Assembly (NCBI GenBank): GCA_017394805.1
Contig: JAFPXC010000003.1
Coordinates: 1-64,000, forward strand
Source: Clostridia bacterium
GTDB taxonomy: Bacteria > Bacillota > Clostridia > Christensenellales > CAG-1252
Length of the DNA: 64,000 nucleotides
Reading direction: 5' to 3'
Below are positions 16,359-38,728 of this stretch, one piece after another. The position numbers and the translations under genes are program-made. The notes under the pieces were generated by a model. The model did no database searches and was not told the DNA's origin. It saw only the letters and a program-made list of their open reading frames with translations. Position 1 is the stretch's first letter, and every line of letters begins with the position of its first letter.

Positions 16359-18617
16359 TTACTTCGACGCTTTTTCGGCGGGGATGGCCGACTCGTCGCG
16401 GACGTAGAGTTGGAAGCCGCATTGATCGAGGAACCAGTAGGCGTCGTCGAGGAGTTGATAGTCGTATTTCATCACGTCTTGCGCCAGTTCGGTAGAGCCT
16501 TTGATTTCCGCGGCGATGCGGCGGAAGGTTACCAATCCCTCGTAGGTAGACAGGTTTCCGTGGTGGCGCAGGAGGATGTTTTTGCCCTTGGTGGGTGCGC
16601 CGTCGGCGTTTTTCTCTTCTCGAATTTGTTGCAAAGTGGCGGGGATGAAGCCCTTGCTTATCATAAAACTATTCCAGCGATAGTGCTCCTGCATGGCCAA
16701 ATTTCTACGGCGTGAGTCGGGGAAGTTGAGGTCGTATTCGATGATATGCTTGCCACGCGTGGTCAATTTGGGGTCGAAGCGGGGCATATCGTCTTTGGCG
16801 TAAATGCGCAGGTATTCCGCCTCGGTCAGTGCCTTGACCTCTTCGGTTTTGTCGCAGTAATCCAAGCCCATCAAGTGCAATTTGGTACGAAGGCTCAGAC
16901 AGCAGTAAACGTTGGATTCGCGTTCGACGTGCGGCATGGAATTGTGCCATTTTTCCATAGATTCGTCGTGTGCTTTTTGCGCGGTCTCGGCGTCCACTAC
17001 GCTGAGTTTGCGCGCCTTGATGTCGCTTTCGAGGGTGTAGGTTTCGTCGCGCAGCATCGCCATTTGATACAAGCGGTCGTTGAGAATGTGGTCAAGGTTG
17101 TACACGGTGGCGTCGAGGTCTGCGATGATGTAGCAATTCTCCTTTTGCATAAAGCTGTACTCTTTGCACCAAGTCTTGGCTTTGACGAAGATAACCATAT
17201 TGTACGCGCCCCATTCACGCCGTTTTTCGAGTAGTTTTTGGGCCAAATCGAGGTTAGCGAGGTCGGAGCCAAAGGCAATAATCACATAGTTGACGTCGTC
17301 CTTGCCTTGCGTGACCAATTGGCGTAGCCGCGCGTAAAACGCGGGTGAGTCGATGCTCATACCGTAATAGTATTCGTGCGCGGGTTCGGCGGGTAGGGGC
17401 AAAAAGTTCTCTTTAGGTAAGCGGTCGTTTTCCGCGAGGACTACGCCCTCGGGCGGATTGATGCGGTACAAAACTTCATCACGATAGCGATAGTAATTAT
17501 GATTGAGATTTTTGTTGTTGCCGTTGTCCTTGTCGAAGATGTGGTAATTGACCTGTTTGAGCACGGCGTCTCCCGTCTCGGCGCGGGTGAGAAACTGGTT
17601 GTTGGCGACCGAGGTCATAAATATTTTTTGATTGGTATCGCCGAAGCCCACCAGCATGACGTTGAGATTCACGTCGGGTTTGACGAGGGACGTGGCGTAG
17701 TCGATTTGACGCGCGTCCATGAAATGCGTGAGGGGGTATTTGTCGATAAAATCGGTGGCGATTTGTTGGTAGCGATCGACGTAGCGAATGATGCCGGAAC
17801 CGTGGTCTACCAAGTCGTCATAGAGGTCGTCGTATTGCGAATTGCCGAATACGTATATCTGCAATGTCGTGCCGATGGATTGCAACGTTGCTTCGTCCAG
17901 GGTATGCAAATAGTCGTAAAATTGACGGCAGATATGCAGGTTGCGCTCGTCGTCTTGGGTGTTGATGATGACGACGTGGCGTGCAAGGGCGGCCTTTTTG
18001 GTGAGGCGTACGACGGCATCCGTCACGTCGTTGCCGCTGCCGATAGAGAAATACGCTACCTTGCGGGCGTAGTAACTCGTGCGCACGTCCGCGGGAATGC
18101 GTTCTTCGACGATAAGTTTGGCGTAGTCGAGGGCGCTTTCGTAGATGGTGACGGAGGTGGGGTTCGCACCGATGATGATGAGTTTGGCGCGGCGCGACGT
18201 CAAGAAGCGCAGATTCTGCCAAGACGCCCATATGTTTTGGTTGAAAACCGAAAAGGACAAGAGGAGCATATTGAGCGCCACCACGACGAAGAAGGAGTAG
18301 ACGACGCCCCGATAAAACGCGTTGACGGCCATCAGACCGGAGATAGAGGCAACCTCGTATTTGAGCACGATGGTAGTGACTGCTTTGTTGATGGCGGCCA
18401 GGAGAGCGGTGGCGAAGTCGTTGCCGCTATAAATATGTCCGACCACATACAGCGGAACGGAAATAAAATAGATCAGGAATCCTTTGCCTTTTTTGAATCC
18501 GCGGACGAATGCGATGCGGTCTCTTCTGTTTTTGACGATGAGCGAGATGACGACGTAGAGCACCAAAGTCGCCATCAATCCCAAACATATAGCCGTTGCG
18601 ATATTGTAACCGAGCAT
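16359..18617 (-). CDS. Membrane protein with TrkA-N-like nucleotide-binding folds and C-terminal RyR-like domain
   Basis: 752 residues from the ATG at 18617 (ribosome site AAGAGAG). A longer open frame runs upstream to 19457, but it crosses the promoter and rtcB and is rejected. Three membrane helices lie in the first 130 residues. The long cytosolic part has several Rossmann-like strands: LIIIGANPTS (about 147), VMLVGFGDTN (about 320) and YVIIAFGSDLANLDLAQKL (about 444), as in TrkA-N/RCK domains. Near residue 642, LAMQEHYRWNSFMISKGF fits the RyR-domain consensus (EHxRW with a following G). Similar multidomain proteins are known as NAD-binding/RyR proteins of unknown role. No K+ filter is present. 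Flanked by 71-bp direct repeats. Confidence 0.65.
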   Translation of the reverse strand: MLGYNIATAICLGLMATLVLYVVISLIVKNRRDRIAFVRGFKKGKGFLIYFISVPLYVVGHIYSGNDFATALLAAINKAVTTIVLKYEVASISGLMAVNAFYRGVVYSFFVVVALNMLLLSFSVFNQNIWASWQNLRFLTSRRAKLIIIGANPTSVTIYESALDYAKLIVEERIPADVRTSYYARKVAYFSIGSGNDVTDAVVRLTKKAALARHVVIINTQDDERNLHICRQFYDYLHTLDEATLQSIGTTLQIYVFGNSQYDDLYDDLVDHGSGIIRYVDRYQQIATDFIDKYPLTHFMDARQIDYATSLVKPDVNLNVMLVGFGDTNQKIFMTSVANNQFLTRAETGDAVLKQVNYHIFDKDNGNNKNLNHNYYRYRDEVLYRINPPEGVVLAENDRLPKENFLPLPAEPAHEYYYGMSIDSPAFYARLRQLVTQGKDDVNYVIIAFGSDLANLDLAQKLLEKRREWGAYNMVIFVKAKTWCKEYSFMQKENCYIIADLDATVYNLDHILNDRLYQMAMLRDETYTLESDIKARKLSVVDAETAQKAHDESMEKWHNSMPHVERESNVYCCLSLRTKLHLMGLDYCDKTEEVKALTEAEYLRIYAKDDMPRFDPKLTTRGKHIIEYDLNFPDSRRRNLAMQEHYRWNSFMISKGFIPATLQQIREEKNADGAPTKGKNILLRHHGNLSTYEGLVTFRRIAAEIKGSTELAQDVMKYDYQLLDDAYWFLDQCGFQLYVRDESAIPAEKASK

Positions 18618-18647
18618 AATATATTCTCTCTTAAAATCATTTACAAT

Positions 18648-18676
18648 ATTATAGCATAGAAACGAATTGTTGGCAA
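18648..18676 (-). promoter_or_regulatory. Promoter of the NAD-binding/RyR-like gene
   Basis: Minus strand TTGCCA (18676-18671), 17-bp spacer, TATAAT (18653-18648). The -35 box lies inside the left end of repeat copy B, so repeat and promoter overlap. Confidence 0.75.
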
Positions 18677-18740
18677 TATCATTCAACCTATTGCGCGAGA
18701 AAAAGCGCGGCGGGCGTTGACAAGGCGGCGGGCGCCGACC
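18670..18740 (+). repeat. 71-bp direct repeat, copy B, forms the rtcB promoter region
   Basis: Second copy of the repeat at 16022-16092. This copy contains the -35 of the rtcB promoter and ends one base before its -10. It also contains ATATCATTCAACC (18676-18688), found again at 22891-22903 before metY, and TCAACCTATTG (18683-18693), found at 20923-20933 before iscS. Confidence 0.85.
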
Positions 18741-18746
18741 TATAGT
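18717..18746 (+). promoter_or_regulatory. Promoter of rtcB
   Basis: TTGACA (18717-18722), 18-bp spacer, TATAGT (18741-18746). The transcript leader to the ATG at 18810 is about 55 bases. Divergent from the promoter at 18648-18676. Confidence 0.65.
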
Positions 18747-18809
18747 AAGAGAGTATTTGCTTCTCACGCAAACCATGCGGAGATAACGGATACGAAGGGG
18801 GTAATTACT

Positions 18810-20009
18810 ATGAAAACCATATCGAAAACCATCGTAGGCAAATACAACACCGCCATCGTCTTCACCGAGCAAGTGGAAGACGGCGCCGTGGAGCAAATCA
18901 AACGCTTGTGCGATTTCGAGCCCTTCCGCGACGCCAAGATCCGCATTATGTCCGACGTGCACATGGGCGTGGGCTGTACCATCGGCACCACTATGACCAT
19001 CACGGACAAGGTCGTGCCCAATATGGTGGGCGTGGATATCGGGTGCGGTATGCTCGTGGTCAAGTTGGACGCCAAGGCGGTAGACTATCCCCGTCTGGAC
19101 GAGTATATCCATCGCAACATTCGCTCCGACACGAGCGTCCGCGACACGGCGCACGATTACGCCGCCCGCATAGACCTCGGCGAGTTGCGTTGCAAAAAAT
19201 ACGTAGACCTCTTCCGCGCCGAGCGCAGTATCGGCACGTTGGGCGGCGGCAATCACTTCATCGAGATCGATCGAGACGAGAGTGGCGACCTCTATTTGGT
19301 GATTCACTCGGGTAGTCGCCATTTGGGCGTCGAAGTGGCCGATAGCTATCAACGCGCCGCGTTCGAGCGCTTGGGCGGCAAGTGGGGCACACGCGGCTGC
19401 GAAGTGGTGCTCGAACGGATGCGAGCCGAAGGCGAAGAAGGGAACGGGTTGCCGCAAAAACCCCTATACGTCCCCCAGGAATTGGCGTACGTCGAGGGGG
19501 AGTTGATGGACGATTATCTCCACGATATGCGCATCACCCAGCGCTTTGCCTCGCTCAACCGCAAGGCGATGGCGGACGACATTTTGCGCGGTATGGGGCT
19601 TGCGAAATGCGACGAATTCGAGACCGTGCACAACTACATCGACCTCGAGCACCGCATCTTGCGCAAGGGCGCGGTGTCCGCCGAGAAGGGCGAGCGCTTG
19701 CTCATTCCGCTCAATATGCGGGACGGCAGCCTGTTGTGCGTGGGCAAGGGCAACGAGGAGTGGAACTGTTCGGCGCCGCACGGCGCGGGGCGTCGTCTCA
19801 GCCGCAGTTGTGCCAAAAACACGTTGAGCCTTGCCGAATACCACCGCGAGATGGAGGGCATATACTCCACGTCGGTCAATATGCGCACGCTGGACGAAAG
19901 CCCCATGGCCTACAAGTCCATGTACGACATTCTCAAAAATATTCGTCCCACCGTTGCGGTGGTGGAACGCATCGTGCCCACCTACAACTTCAAAGCACCC
20001 GAAAAATAA
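18810..20009 (+). CDS. rtcB: RtcB family RNA ligase
   Basis: 399 residues from the ATG at 18810. RtcB joins RNA 2',3'-cyclic phosphate or 3'-phosphate ends to 5'-OH ends, using GTP and Mn2+. Motifs: MSDVHMGVG, GVDIGCGM (metal ligands Asp and Cys near 76-79), GGGNHFIEID, HSGSRHLG, and SAPHGAGRRLSR with the histidine that takes up GMP (about 323). The length fits the shorter bacterial RtcB group rather than the 480-residue archaeal type. No archease or RtcA gene is adjacent. Monocistronic with its own terminator; likely role is RNA repair after stress or toxin cleavage (inference). Confidence 0.92.
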   Translation: MKTISKTIVGKYNTAIVFTEQVEDGAVEQIKRLCDFEPFRDAKIRIMSDVHMGVGCTIGTTMTITDKVVPNMVGVDIGCGMLVVKLDAKAVDYPRLDEYIHRNIRSDTSVRDTAHDYAARIDLGELRCKKYVDLFRAERSIGTLGGGNHFIEIDRDESGDLYLVIHSGSRHLGVEVADSYQRAAFERLGGKWGTRGCEVVLERMRAEGEEGNGLPQKPLYVPQELAYVEGELMDDYLHDMRITQRFASLNRKAMADDILRGMGLAKCDEFETVHNYIDLEHRILRKGAVSAEKGERLLIPLNMRDGSLLCVGKGNEEWNCSAPHGAGRRLSRSCAKNTLSLAEYHREMEGIYSTSVNMRTLDESPMAYKSMYDILKNIRPTVAVVERIVPTYNFKAPEK

Positions 20010-34886: not shown

Positions 34887-35662
34887 AAAAATTGCCTGTC
34901 ATTTTACTTTTGATAGTAGTAGCGGTCGTTTCGGTGCTGGCCTTTTCGGGGTGCGTAGCGGACAAAAATCGCACGACCTTCCTATATGACGAAAAGGGGT
35001 TGTTCTCCGCCGAGCAAGTGGCGCAAATCAACGAGGCGTGCGCCAAGACCACCAAGAAGTACGGCGTGACCATGCTCGTGGCCACCACCAATCGCACGAA
35101 TAACTTCGCGGATATGAACGGGGAGCAATTCCTCGCCGCGCAAGGGCTCTCGGACAAGGACGACTATATCCTCATCATCATCAACGCCAATGGCTACCAA
35201 GATAACTACCACTTCGACCTCTACAAGTACGGTCGTGCGGCCACGCGTTTGTCCGAGGGCGAGGCGAGCGACGCGATATGGTCTATCTACGGCGACTACA
35301 TCGTGTCCAACGATAGCGGCGTCGCGGCTGACGGCGTGGTGGGTATGCTCAAAATGTTGGGCAAATCCTACGACGGTATGCCCCTGTGGCTCAACATCGT
35401 CATCGGCGTAGCCATCGGCCTCATCGTGGCGGGCGTGGTAGCCGCGCGCATTTCCAAGGGTTACAGCCGCAAGCGCAAGAACGAGACGTATCCTTTGGAT
35501 AAGTATTGTCAAATGGCCCTCAACGGGCACGAGGACAAGTTCCTCCGCAGCACCACCACCGTGGTCGTTATCAACAATTCCTCGGGCGGCGGTCGCAGCG
35601 GCGGCGGTGGTTCCCATTCCTCGGGTGGCGGCGGTGGCGGCGGTCACGCCGGCGGCCGATAA
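34883..35662 (+). CDS. TPM-domain lipoprotein (YdjH/YgcG-like)
   Basis: 259 residues, GTG start overlapping the preceding TGA (GTGA) with AGGAGG upstream. The N-terminus looks like a lipoprotein signal (LAFSGC, Cys about 24). The TPM domain (about 35-165) has FLYDEKGLFSAEQVAQINEA and DDYILIIINANG. A membrane helix follows (about 172-192), then a basic cytosolic stretch and a tail of G, S and H (GGGRSGGGGSHSSGGGGGGGHAGG). This tail is typical of YgcG/TPM proteins. It is the third member of the YdjI-YdjG-YdjH set. A bidirectional terminator follows. Confidence 0.8.
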   Translation: MKKLPVILLLIVVAVVSVLAFSGCVADKNRTTFLYDEKGLFSAEQVAQINEACAKTTKKYGVTMLVATTNRTNNFADMNGEQFLAAQGLSDKDDYILIIINANGYQDNYHFDLYKYGRAATRLSEGEASDAIWSIYGDYIVSNDSGVAADGVVGMLKMLGKSYDGMPLWLNIVIGVAIGLIVAGVVAARISKGYSRKRKNETYPLDKYCQMALNGHEDKFLRSTTTVVVINNSSGGGRSGGGGSHSSGGGGGGGHAGGR

Positions 35663-35684
35663 GGGCAGATAAATAAATGTTAAT

Positions 35685-35719
35685 AAAAACAGCACAACTC
35701 ACGAGGTTGTGCTGTTTTT
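35685..35719. terminator. Bidirectional terminator between the Ydj-like operon and the GuK-TIR gene
   Basis: AAAAACAGCACAAC (35685-35698) pairs with GTTGTGCTGTTTTT (35706-35719), a 14-bp perfect stem with T-runs on both strands. It can stop both convergent transcripts. Confidence 0.92.
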
Positions 35720-35731
35720 AACACTATTGGA

Positions 35732-36835
35732 TTATTTTAATTCATTAAGCCATTCTCCGAGAATATCCTTGATATCCATAACTTCGTTATATTCTTTTCC
35801 TTCATCTTTTAATATATCAAAGAAATTATATTTACGCAAGGTGCTGTGTTTTATGATTAGGCAATGTTTAAATTGAGTCTGCATACATCCTAATTCATAT
35901 GCGACATTTGGACTAAAAGCATTGCAATCTTCAGGTTCCTCAAAAACTGCTACGCCATATTTACAAACATAAGATAAAGCTATTGGATTGTAAACATCAT
36001 GAGTTAAGTCGTTTTTATCTGCAAAAATGCAATTATATCCTTTTTCAGCTACCCATGTTTGTATTGCAGGGCGTAGTATAGAATTATTATTTCTATATCG
36101 AATCATTATAAAAATGTTTTTATCGTAGTCTTTTCTTTTTATAAAGTTACGCATAACTTCATATTGTCCGGCAATAGTTTCTCCAAGATGAATGCACTCT
36201 CCGTTGTGTAAGCGAAGAACACCTTGAATTGGTTCGTTATATAAAGTAAGGAGTTGACGTATTAACCGATGAAAACAGTTTGGATCGGAGTTGTTTATAA
36301 TGGTGTGTTTGTAGATTGGGACATCCTGCGATGCGTAGTCATTCCAAACCATTTCATTTCTAGATAACCTGTCCGCTATGTCTTCTTCTGAATATCCCTC
36401 GTTTTTTAATCGTTTTTGCACAAGGAGCATATCCGTATAAATGAAGATAGGTATAACGTTATACACCTTATCATATCTCTTAACAAGTTTAGTTATAATA
36501 TCTACGTCGCGTATAATAATAAAAACATTCTTACATGTAGACAACTCTTTTTCTATTTCATATAATGAGAAACCATATCTATATTTTATTTTACCACCAT
36601 ACTCATATGAGATGAACATATCTCCGATACTGGATTCTATTTGTTCGAATTGTTCATCTGAAACAAATTGTAAATCAACATTTAATTCACCGTCTTTTTC
36701 TCTTTTTCGTTCGGGGCGGGTAGTGTATTTTTTAATAATAACAGCATGAAAAGAGTTTTTTTTGTCGTTTAGATAAGATACGGCATCTGATTTCCCCGTA
36801 CCGGCTAAACCGTCGATTATGAATAAGTTCTTCAT
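35732..36835 (-). CDS. Fusion of a guanylate-kinase-like domain and a TIR/deoxyribosyltransferase-like domain; candidate defence protein
   Basis: 367 residues. Residues 1-195 follow the guanylate kinase fold: Walker A GLAGTGKS (9-16), KKYTTRPERKREKDGELNVDLQFVS (GMP-binding TTRP and YHFVS-like region), KYRYGFSLYEIEKEL, FIIIRDVD, a lid region LLVQKRLKNEGYSEEDIADRL. Residues about 237-367 are a separate alpha/beta domain: NIFIMIRYRNN, VAEKGYNCIFAD, then SPNVAYELGCMQTQ (about 303-316), which is the signature seen in TIR-like NADases and nucleoside 2-deoxyribosyltransferases, with Glu as candidate catalytic residue. I know of no described system with this fusion. Base composition is far more AT-rich than all neighbours, which points to transfer. 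Own promoter, alone between two convergent/co-directional operons. Confidence 0.72.
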   Translation of the reverse strand: MKNLFIIDGLAGTGKSDAVSYLNDKKNSFHAVIIKKYTTRPERKREKDGELNVDLQFVSDEQFEQIESSIGDMFISYEYGGKIKYRYGFSLYEIEKELSTCKNVFIIIRDVDIITKLVKRYDKVYNVIPIFIYTDMLLVQKRLKNEGYSEEDIADRLSRNEMVWNDYASQDVPIYKHTIINNSDPNCFHRLIRQLLTLYNEPIQGVLRLHNGECIHLGETIAGQYEVMRNFIKRKDYDKNIFIMIRYRNNNSILRPAIQTWVAEKGYNCIFADKNDLTHDVYNPIALSYVCKYGVAVFEEPEDCNAFSPNVAYELGCMQTQFKHCLIIKHSTLRKYNFFDILKDEGKEYNEVMDIKDILGEWLNELK

Positions 36836-36861
36836 ATGTTTCCCTCCATCACTTTTTGATT

Positions 36862-36890
36862 ATTATACCACAAATAAAATGCATTGCCAC
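36862..36890 (-). promoter_or_regulatory. Promoter of the GuK-TIR gene
   Basis: Minus strand extended -10 TGGTATAAT (36870-36862), 17-bp spacer, -35 GTGGCA (36890-36885, 4 of 6). A GGAGGG ribosome site follows before the ATG. Confidence 0.65.
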
Positions 36891-36919
36891 ATTAATTGTT
36901 TGTGTTTAATAGAGTTAAT

Positions 36920-38728
36920 TTAGCCCAATATCGCTTTGGTCTTTTCGTCCTCGTATTGGCGTTGGTAGAGGGTGCGGTAATAGCCGCCGAGGGCGAGCAG
37001 TTCGGGGTGAGTGCCGCGCTCCACGATCTTGCCGTTCTTGACCACGAGGATGCAGTCGGCGTTCTTGACGGTGGAGAGGCGGTGCGCTATGACGATGGAC
37101 GTGCGGCCTTTGATGACCGTGTCGATGGCGGCTTGAATACGCGCTTCGGTGAGGGTGTCCACGGAGGCGGTGGCTTCGTCGAGGACGAGCAGTTTGGGGT
37201 CGCACAGAATTGCTCTGGCGAAGGCGATGAGTTGCTTCTCGCCCGTGGACAACAGGTCGCCGCCCTCGCCCACGTCGCTGTCTATGCCCTTCTCCAATTT
37301 GGCCACCACGTCGGTGGCGCTCACGGTTTCGAGCGCGCGCCGTATATCTTCGTCGGTGGCGTTGGGGTTGCCGTAGAGGAGATTTTGGCGAATGGTGCCC
37401 GAGAAGAGGTGGGGCGTTTGCAGGACGTAGCCCACGTTGGCGTGCAGCCAATTTTGCGACCGCTTGCGGATATCCTTGCCGTCCACCAATATTTGCCCTT
37501 CCTGCACGTCGTAGAAGCGGCATATCAAATTGACCAGAGTGGACTTGCCCGCGCCCGTTTCGCCCACGATGGCGACGTTGGTGCCGAAGGGGATATCCAG
37601 GCTGAAGTGCTCGAGCACGGGCTCGGTGCCGTCGGGGTAGGTGAAGGTGATATCGCGTATCTCGATATCGCCCTTCATGGGCTCGAACGCGTCGTATTGC
37701 GGGTGGAATTGGTCGCCGTACAGCATCTTGACGGCGGGCGTATCCACCACGTCCGGCTCGGTGACGAGCAGTTTGTGCACCCGCTCGATATTCACCTGGC
37801 AGGTGATGAGGTCGCTCACCGCGTCGATGAGCCAGCGCATAGGCTCCATCATGCCTTCGGCGTAGCTCATAAAGAGGCTGAACGTACCCACCTCTTCCTC
37901 GGCGAGGTAGCCACCCCGCCACAGGACGATGGCCAGCCCCACCGAAGAGGCAAAATTGATGGTGGCGGCGAAGAGACCTCGCAGGTGCGCCACGCGCAGG
38001 GTTTTGCGGCGAATGTTGGCGGTATCGCGGGCAAACGCCGACTTCATTTTGCCCTGTATCACCAAGGTTTTGATGGTCTTGGCACCCGTAATGCCTTCGT
38101 TGAAGTCGGAGGTGATGATGGAGTTGAGCTCGCGCACCTGACGATTGCCGCGCACCAATTTGCCTTGGAAAATGCCGAACATCACGGCCGTTACGGGCAG
38201 TACGATGAGCACTAGTAGCGCCAACCGCCAATTGACGGCCAGCATCACCACGATGGAGCCCAAGAGGTAGGAGCCGTGCCACACGCCGTCCATCAGGCTC
38301 CAACTCACCAGCATACCGATTTTGGACGTGTCGCTCATCACGCGCGCGTGAATATAGCCCACGCTGTTGGCGTTGTAGTAGGACAGGCCGAGGGTTTGCA
38401 GTTTGGCGAAGGCCTCGTTGCGCAGGTCGCGGTTGATCTCCACCTCGGTGCGGAAGGCAAAGGACAGCGCGATGTAGTTGACGAACGCCGCGCCCAGCAC
38501 CGTCACCACGAAGAGGGCGATATAGTAGGGCAGAGTGTCCAACGTGCCGCCCATCACGAAGTGATTGAGCGCGTAGCGCTGGAAGATGGGCAACACCACG
38601 TCCACGGCGCTGCCCAAAAGGCCGCAGACGATCATCGTAAAGATGCGCTTGCGGTACACGCGCAGGAAGGGTATCAGATAGGGGATGCCGAAGCATTTTA
38701 GTTTGACGGAGTCGGATTTCTTTTTCAT
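36920..38728 (-). CDS. ABC exporter subunit, canonical Walker B half of a heterodimer
   Basis: 602 residues: six-helix type IV exporter membrane domain (about 20-320) fused to an ATPase domain. Walker A GETGAGKS (about 388), signature LSTGEKQ (C at the expected LSGGQ place, with T and E changes), Walker B LLVLDEATASVD (about 515) with the catalytic Glu, and H-loop IAHRLSTV. The partner gene ends by a four-base overlap (ATGA), so the two are translated as a pair. Such pairs (YheI/YheH, LmrC/LmrD, TM287/288 type) export lipids, drugs or peptides. Substrate unknown. Confidence 0.9.
   Translation of the reverse strand: MKKKSDSVKLKCFGIPYLIPFLRVYRKRIFTMIVCGLLGSAVDVVLPIFQRYALNHFVMGGTLDTLPYYIALFVVTVLGAAFVNYIALSFAFRTEVEINRDLRNEAFAKLQTLGLSYYNANSVGYIHARVMSDTSKIGMLVSWSLMDGVWHGSYLLGSIVVMLAVNWRLALLVLIVLPVTAVMFGIFQGKLVRGNRQVRELNSIITSDFNEGITGAKTIKTLVIQGKMKSAFARDTANIRRKTLRVAHLRGLFAATINFASSVGLAIVLWRGGYLAEEEVGTFSLFMSYAEGMMEPMRWLIDAVSDLITCQVNIERVHKLLVTEPDVVDTPAVKMLYGDQFHPQYDAFEPMKGDIEIRDITFTYPDGTEPVLEHFSLDIPFGTNVAIVGETGAGKSTLVNLICRFYDVQEGQILVDGKDIRKRSQNWLHANVGYVLQTPHLFSGTIRQNLLYGNPNATDEDIRRALETVSATDVVAKLEKGIDSDVGEGGDLLSTGEKQLIAFARAILCDPKLLVLDEATASVDTLTEARIQAAIDTVIKGRTSIVIAHRLSTVKNADCILVVKNGKIVERGTHPELLALGGYYRTLYQRQYEDEKTKAILG

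Follow-up and report, generated by a model that had tools for sequence, protein, structure and literature searches.

A guanylate-kinase-like domain fused to a TIR/NDT-like domain: a candidate single-protein anti-phage module in a Clostridia genome and its relatives in bacteria and an archaeon

We describe GK-TIR, a protein in which a guanylate-kinase-like N-terminal half is joined to a C-terminal half related to TIR domains and nucleoside deoxyribosyltransferases (NDTs). In our reading, to which we give a probability of roughly 55%, GK-TIR is a horizontally acquired, single-protein anti-phage conflict module in which a kinase-derived sensor controls a TIR/NDT-type glycosidase. The family is small, is encoded by a single gene at three of its five loci and spans bacteria to archaea.

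The gene and its surroundings

The window, that is, the whole stretch of DNA analysed, comprises the first 64,000 nucleotides of contig JAFPXC010000003.1 of a Clostridia bacterium (Christensenellales, CAG-1252). The features discussed here are as follows.

35732..36835, minus strand: GK-TIR gene, ATG start, 367 aa, with full-length relatives at loci L027-L030
36236..36835, minus strand: guanylate-kinase-like domain, residues 1-200, from a PF00625 match, a fold match and residue mapping
36134..36235, minus strand: linker, residues 201-234, poorly conserved, one invariant residue
35735..36133, minus strand: TIR/NDT-like domain, residues 235-367, from C-domain relatives, PF10137/PF05014 matches in those relatives, and fold
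36843..36847, minus strand: Shine-Dalgarno sequence GGAGG, 7 nt 5' of the GK-TIR ATG, from the sequence
36862..36890, minus strand: candidate promoter of the sigma-70, extended -10 type, GTGGCA-17-TATAAT, matching the consensus at 10 of 12 positions
35688..35716, no strand assigned: inverted repeat AACAGCACAAC-7-GTTGTGCTGTT, probable bidirectional terminator at the GK-TIR 3' end, from the sequence
35569..36920, no strand assigned: segment dissimilar to the sister genome G018, from synteny and blastn (similarity ends at 35568 and restarts at 36921)

A preliminary description of this DNA had pointed to a single low-GC gene at this position, and the gene is exactly there, with an open reading frame free of internal stops. 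Its GC content is 0.324, against 57% for the window, and its GC3 is 0.277, whereas the adjacent genes have a GC of 0.56-0.60 and a GC3 of 0.76-0.83; it is the lowest-GC stretch of the window. The same description credited the gene with its own promoter and terminator, of which the promoter survives as a candidate. Since nine promoter-like sites of this quality compare with 6.5 +/- 2.5 for shuffled sequence, the candidate is convincing by position only. The inverted repeat, which was missing from the list produced by an automatic scan, is probably not exclusive to GK-TIR, as the sister genome carries its own hairpin at the equivalent place; the terminator is probably common to GK-TIR and the upstream plus-strand operon.

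The gene was found in none of the five congeners searched, two of which yielded no flanking marker and one of which was only 54% complete. In G015, G016 and G018 the flanking genes were found and the GK-TIR gene was absent. G018 is the closest sister genome, with neighbour genes 77-85% identical; it retains the upstream genes and the ABC transporter that flank GK-TIR and has, at the equivalent site, an unrelated gene of normal GC encoding a 222-aa membrane protein. Judged by these sequence comparisons, the site is a variable one that holds foreign cargo in the genome of the window.

The guanylate-kinase-like half

The preliminary assignment of the N-terminal half to guanylate kinases (GKs) is borne out by a Pfam profile search, in which PF00625 matches residues 3-167 (E=4.5e-10), and by the AF2 model of the protein (pLDDT 82.5, pTM 0.55), in which the predicted fold of this half resembles the guanylate kinases 2anb (target-normalised TM 0.69) and 2an9. 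Its motifs are the P-loop GLAGTGKSD, TTR..R..E, the lid arginines R156 and R159, and INNS. For residue mapping, the five GK-TIR members were aligned with yeast GK, used for residue numbering, and with two kinds of internal reference, the canonical gmk of the window's own genome and gmk genes of the family.

The alignment modifies the earlier view that the layout of a guanylate kinase is complete here. The P-loop GxGTGK, K15, R40, R43 and R156 are invariant in all five members; in yeast numbering, the GMP-phosphate arginines R38 and R41 are both kept in all five, and Tyr78, Arg146 and Asn168 are kept as well. The guanine contacts, by contrast, are altered in every member (S34 to K, E69 to S, K or T, S80 to F or L, D98 to I), Y50 is replaced by L in all five, D100 is not conserved, and the lid arginine R135 has become Glu or Asp throughout. 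The own-genome gmk retains the canonical residues except for the conservative changes of Ser80 to Thr and Asp100 to Glu. The window protein scores 54.8 bits against TIGR03263, for which the equivalog cut-off is 160. Given the loss of the guanine contacts, GK-TIR is, as far as its residues indicate, no GMP kinase; the GK-like half would combine a GK fold with another acceptor or else be a sensor. The invariance of the P-loop, K15, R40, R43 and R156 argues for retained nucleotide binding.

We rejected two enzymatic identities. A housekeeping gmk is not in question since the canonical gmk lies elsewhere (contig C33, in yicC-gmk-coaBC) and the GMP pocket is lost, and ribose-1,5-bisphosphokinase (PhnN) was discarded because the matches of some members to TIGR02322 fall far below its cut-off.

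The TIR/NDT-like half

The C-terminal half contains the motif SPNVAYELG, and its presumed catalytic residue, Glu314 (PNVAYELG), is invariant in the five members. Searching the two halves separately, as had been proposed, gave PF00625 for the N-terminal half and no direct Pfam match for the C-terminal half, which alone also lacked matches in PADLOC and among PDB sequences. Searches with the whole protein or the C-terminal half in Pfam, PADLOC, PDB and, by tblastn, phage and plasmid sequences returned guanylate kinases or nothing, bar enterobacterial plasmid relatives, and no PADLOC model covers the window protein.

The plasmid relatives, on small Citrobacter, Salmonella and Klebsiella plasmids, share a related C-domain (tblastn E=2e-5); their protein matches PF10137 (CAP12-PCTIR_TIR) at 1.9e-4 and PF05014 (NDT) at 0.004, both short of the curated cut-offs. 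Among 14 aligned relatives, six match PF10137, the best at 2.8e-6, the window protein itself being unmatched; PF05014 matches in relatives reach 4.6e-4 at best. The plasmid protein, of 312 aa with a TIR-like C-domain, is encoded at L015:2543-3481 and L017:6539-7477; the plasmids that encode it are small enterobacterial ones (3.6 kb) and also one that carries KPC-3.

An AlphaFold (AF2) model of the C-domain only, built from the 14-sequence alignment (pTM 0.80), is flavodoxin-like and has the TIR/NDT fold that the preliminary description had anticipated and had named as a check. Query-normalised TM values are 0.65 for DNPH1, 0.64 for TIR-STING, 0.60 for SARM1, 0.60 for T. brucei NDT and 0.57 for AbTir, and the model also resembles viral NDTs and phage hydroxymethyl-CMP hydrolases. 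The full-length model resembles the CMP N-glycosidase BcmB (4jen; target-normalised TM 0.72). Membership of the C-terminal half in the TIR/NDT superfamily is thus well supported by relatives and predicted structure, and the fold scores of the model do not separate an NADase-type TIR from a nucleotide glycosidase.

The family and its neighbourhoods

A genome-wide scan identified 14 loci that share the C-domain at 32-46% identity. Its search patterns were chosen from an alignment of which rows 2 and 3 were invented motif strings, used for pattern choice only. The full architecture, in the same domain order as in the window protein, is found at four of the 14 loci.

L027: Erysipelotrichaceae, GK-TIR of 359 aa
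L028: Chlorobiota, GK-TIR of 365 aa
L029: Ca. Argoarchaeum (archaeon), GK-TIR of 377 aa
L030: Clostridium, GK-TIR of about 368 aa

These four proteins are 37-44% identical to the window protein, and the five members are 37-53% identical among themselves, with 73 invariant residues, of which 37 fall in the GK half, 35 in the TIR half and one in the linker. That four independent relatives share this domain order over their full length excludes a chance fusion and upholds the fusion as first described. The closest pair comprises the Chlorobiota and archaeal proteins (52% identical), a closeness that departs from organismal kinship and suggests horizontal transfer. Since profile searches of about 400 phylum genomes, a sampling, yielded no further full-length member, the family appears rare; no relative turned up when viral contigs were scanned with peptide patterns, and we therefore see no sign that GK-TIR is a phage gene. 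A match at L014 proved to be a LacI-type regulator and was dismissed as chance.

Related C-domains are also joined to other N-terminal parts (helical, FtsZ-like, or embedded in type I R-M), as expected for a portable effector.

Several such loci merit description in their own right. The TIR-like proteins encoded at L031-L036 (e.g. L035:2207-3602) are 275-293 aa long and have a helical N-half, and each gene is preceded by a conserved gene of about 165 aa (VTMRVRIGE.EIEVTGPSDYVEKK...), forming a two-gene cassette present in MAGs of Deltaproteobacteria, Verrucomicrobia, Planctomycetota and Nitrospirae. In a Bacteroidia MAG, the product of L039:4363-5817 joins a CAP12-PCTIR_TIR-like domain to an FtsZ/tubulin GTPase (PF00091, 3.5e-37; PF12327, 1.7e-14). 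Finally, L020:946-1899, between type I HsdS-like and HsdR-like genes, encodes a C-terminal TIR effector-like domain (PADLOC 2.8e-14).

The full-length relatives adjoin or lie near defence genes and not in housekeeping contexts, the two outcomes between which the preliminary description had asked the homologues to decide. At L030, HTH regulators are followed by GK-TIR, a NUDIX protein whose gene has a 31-nt overlap with GK-TIR, a protein containing two GK-like regions (the profile matches the second only) and then Avs4, 3.5 kb downstream of GK-TIR (PADLOC E=1.8e-239). At L029, a TdeIII endonuclease (PF09520, E=5.4e-92) and a methylase lie 2.5-4 kb downstream, an R-M pair outside the GK-TIR operon. 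At L028, a ResIII-type helicase ends 250 bp upstream; its likeness to PbeA and to type IV restriction helicases lies in the helicase core, and it has a C-terminal HNH-like motif by eye. L027 encodes a further, divergent GK-TIR fusion, with a C-domain that matches a PADLOC TIR effector (E=3.4e-13), as well as a GK-like protein, an adjoining, divergently oriented NUDIX protein and a TrkA-N/RyR-like membrane protein. Defence genes are therefore found near GK-TIR at L030 (Avs4) and L029 (R-M) and are probable at L028 and L027; within the window none adjoins the gene. By a rough, uncontrolled estimate from general defence-gene density, two to four defence neighbourhoods out of four would be unlikely by chance.

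The NUDIX proteins of L027 and L030 are homologous (E=8e-24, 35% over 142 aa), and these loci also have related GK-like proteins. No NUDIX or GK-like neighbours occur in the stretches read at L028 and L029, and a search of the genome to which the window belongs gave no NUDIX homologue. The original proposal of a one-gene system thus suits the window and loci L028 and L029, whereas at L027 and L030 NUDIX and GK-like proteins accompany the gene; the system may have optional partners. The L027 membrane protein is homologous to the product of a window ORF at 16359-19457 on the minus strand (1032 aa, start uncertain; blastp E=7.5e-13); its TrkA-N/RyR label comes from this similarity and from sequence reading, with no Pfam match. 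Elsewhere in the window's genome, an NT5C nucleotidase-guanylate kinase fusion adjoins a membrane protein of 1010 aa that matches RyR weakly (G000:C19, L023:922-2025 and L025:10601-13633).

Proposed mechanism and alternatives

For many immune effectors of the TIR type, the switch is a cyclic nucleotide, an Argonaute or STAND sensor, or a phage protein. For GK-TIR, we infer a defence role, a sensing step, a substrate and an abortive outcome as follows. The GK-derived half, having kept its ATP- and phosphate-binding parts and gained a new acceptor pocket, would most likely bind, and perhaps phosphorylate, a nucleotide or a different phosphorylated compound that arises or is altered in the course of infection. 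This event would release or assemble the C-terminal TIR/NDT-type N-glycosidase, which, by means of Glu314, would cleave either NAD+ or a nucleotide related to it; the cleavage would arrest or kill the infected cell. The five scattered members, the AT-rich gene, its absence in sisters, the defence neighbours, the invariant Glu314, the kinase core kept without its guanine contacts and the portable C-domain favour such an anti-phage module; that there are only five full-length members, that the window has no adjoining defence gene and that the protein falls outside all PADLOC models weakens the case. More tentatively, the former NMP kinase might detect infection-altered nucleotide pools, or phosphorylate its partner's product or substrate, and so switch the glycosidase directly, with NUDIX and GK-like partners optionally tuning the signal.

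A role in nucleotide metabolism seems rather unlikely to us. The protein would then combine an NMP kinase of altered specificity with a DNPH1- or BcmB-like NMP/dNMP N-glycosidase for salvage or pool cleaning, a reading consistent with the likeness of the full-length model to BcmB and NDTs, that of the C-domain to DNPH1 and phage hydroxymethyl-CMP hydrolases, the NT5C-GK fusion in the window's genome and the NUDIX proteins near relatives. However, GK-TIR is sporadic, missing in sister species and foreign in composition, no conserved metabolic operon surrounds its genes, and genes for Avs4, R-M and a restriction-type helicase lie near relatives. The NUDIX proteins acquire another meaning if the two domains, together with NUDIX and the extra GK-like proteins, make and remove a messenger, derived from NAD or a nucleotide, for a further effector such as the TrkA-N/RyR-type membrane proteins present at L027, in the window and at other places in the genome. 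We consider this unlikely: although homologous NUDIX and related GK-like proteins stand beside GK-TIR at both L027 and L030, and the L027 membrane protein has its homolog in the window, the window's own genome has no NUDIX homologue, L028 and L029 have no such neighbours in the stretches read, and the TrkA-N/RyR link runs between loci, outside the window's GK-TIR gene. Least probable is a kinase-dead GK-like half that, as in MAGUK proteins, binds a protein or phosphoprotein and senses a phage protein with no nucleotide involved; the acidic replacement of lid R135 in all members and the missing GMP pocket would suit it, but the invariant P-loop, Lys15, R40, R43 and R156 would not.

If the anti-phage reading with a nucleotide-kinase-derived sensor is true, cells would read the nucleotide pool directly, and the switching of a fused TIR/NDT glycosidase by such a sensor would be a new one-protein immune principle.

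Comparison with known systems

The literature searched, which included few subscription papers, contains no description of a GK fused to a TIR/NDT domain, and the family is apparently undescribed. Bacterial Gmk and PhnN share the GK fold, the P-loop and TTRxxR with GK-TIR, which, unlike Gmk, lacks the guanine contacts and one lid arginine. NDT, BcmB and DNPH1 have the fold and the Glu of the xYELG motif in common with the C-terminal half, but they are stand-alone enzymes, and in sequence they are only weakly similar (the best PF05014 match in relatives is 4.6e-4). Fusions between NDT domains and Abi N-terminal domains have been reported (PMC3710099).

Nucleotide-kinase domains occur in other conflict proteins, where they are proposed to respond to nucleotides: that of DndF in DndFGH has been proposed as the trigger (PMC10853773), and SLOG-guanylate kinase fusions occur in phages (PMC9503650). 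In contrast to GK-TIR, neither of them carries a TIR/NDT-like domain. By sequence, the TIR-like domain of the DUF4062 NADases (Swarozyc) falls between TIR and NDT; it is accompanied by an auxiliary domain and has a Glu that is essential, and Swarozyc responds to a phage portal protein (PMC13174449). GK-TIR likewise combines a TIR-like domain, an auxiliary domain and a Glu, but the families differ and no kinase domain is described for DUF4062 NADases (PMC13174449). Similarly, CAP12/PycTIR (PF10137) and other CBASS/Pycsar TIR NADase effectors correspond in fold and Glu motif, and six of the 14 aligned relatives match PF10137 in the C-domain. In contrast to these effectors, GK-TIR has no adjoining cyclase gene or cyclic-nucleotide sensor, and a GK-like domain occupies the position of the sensor.
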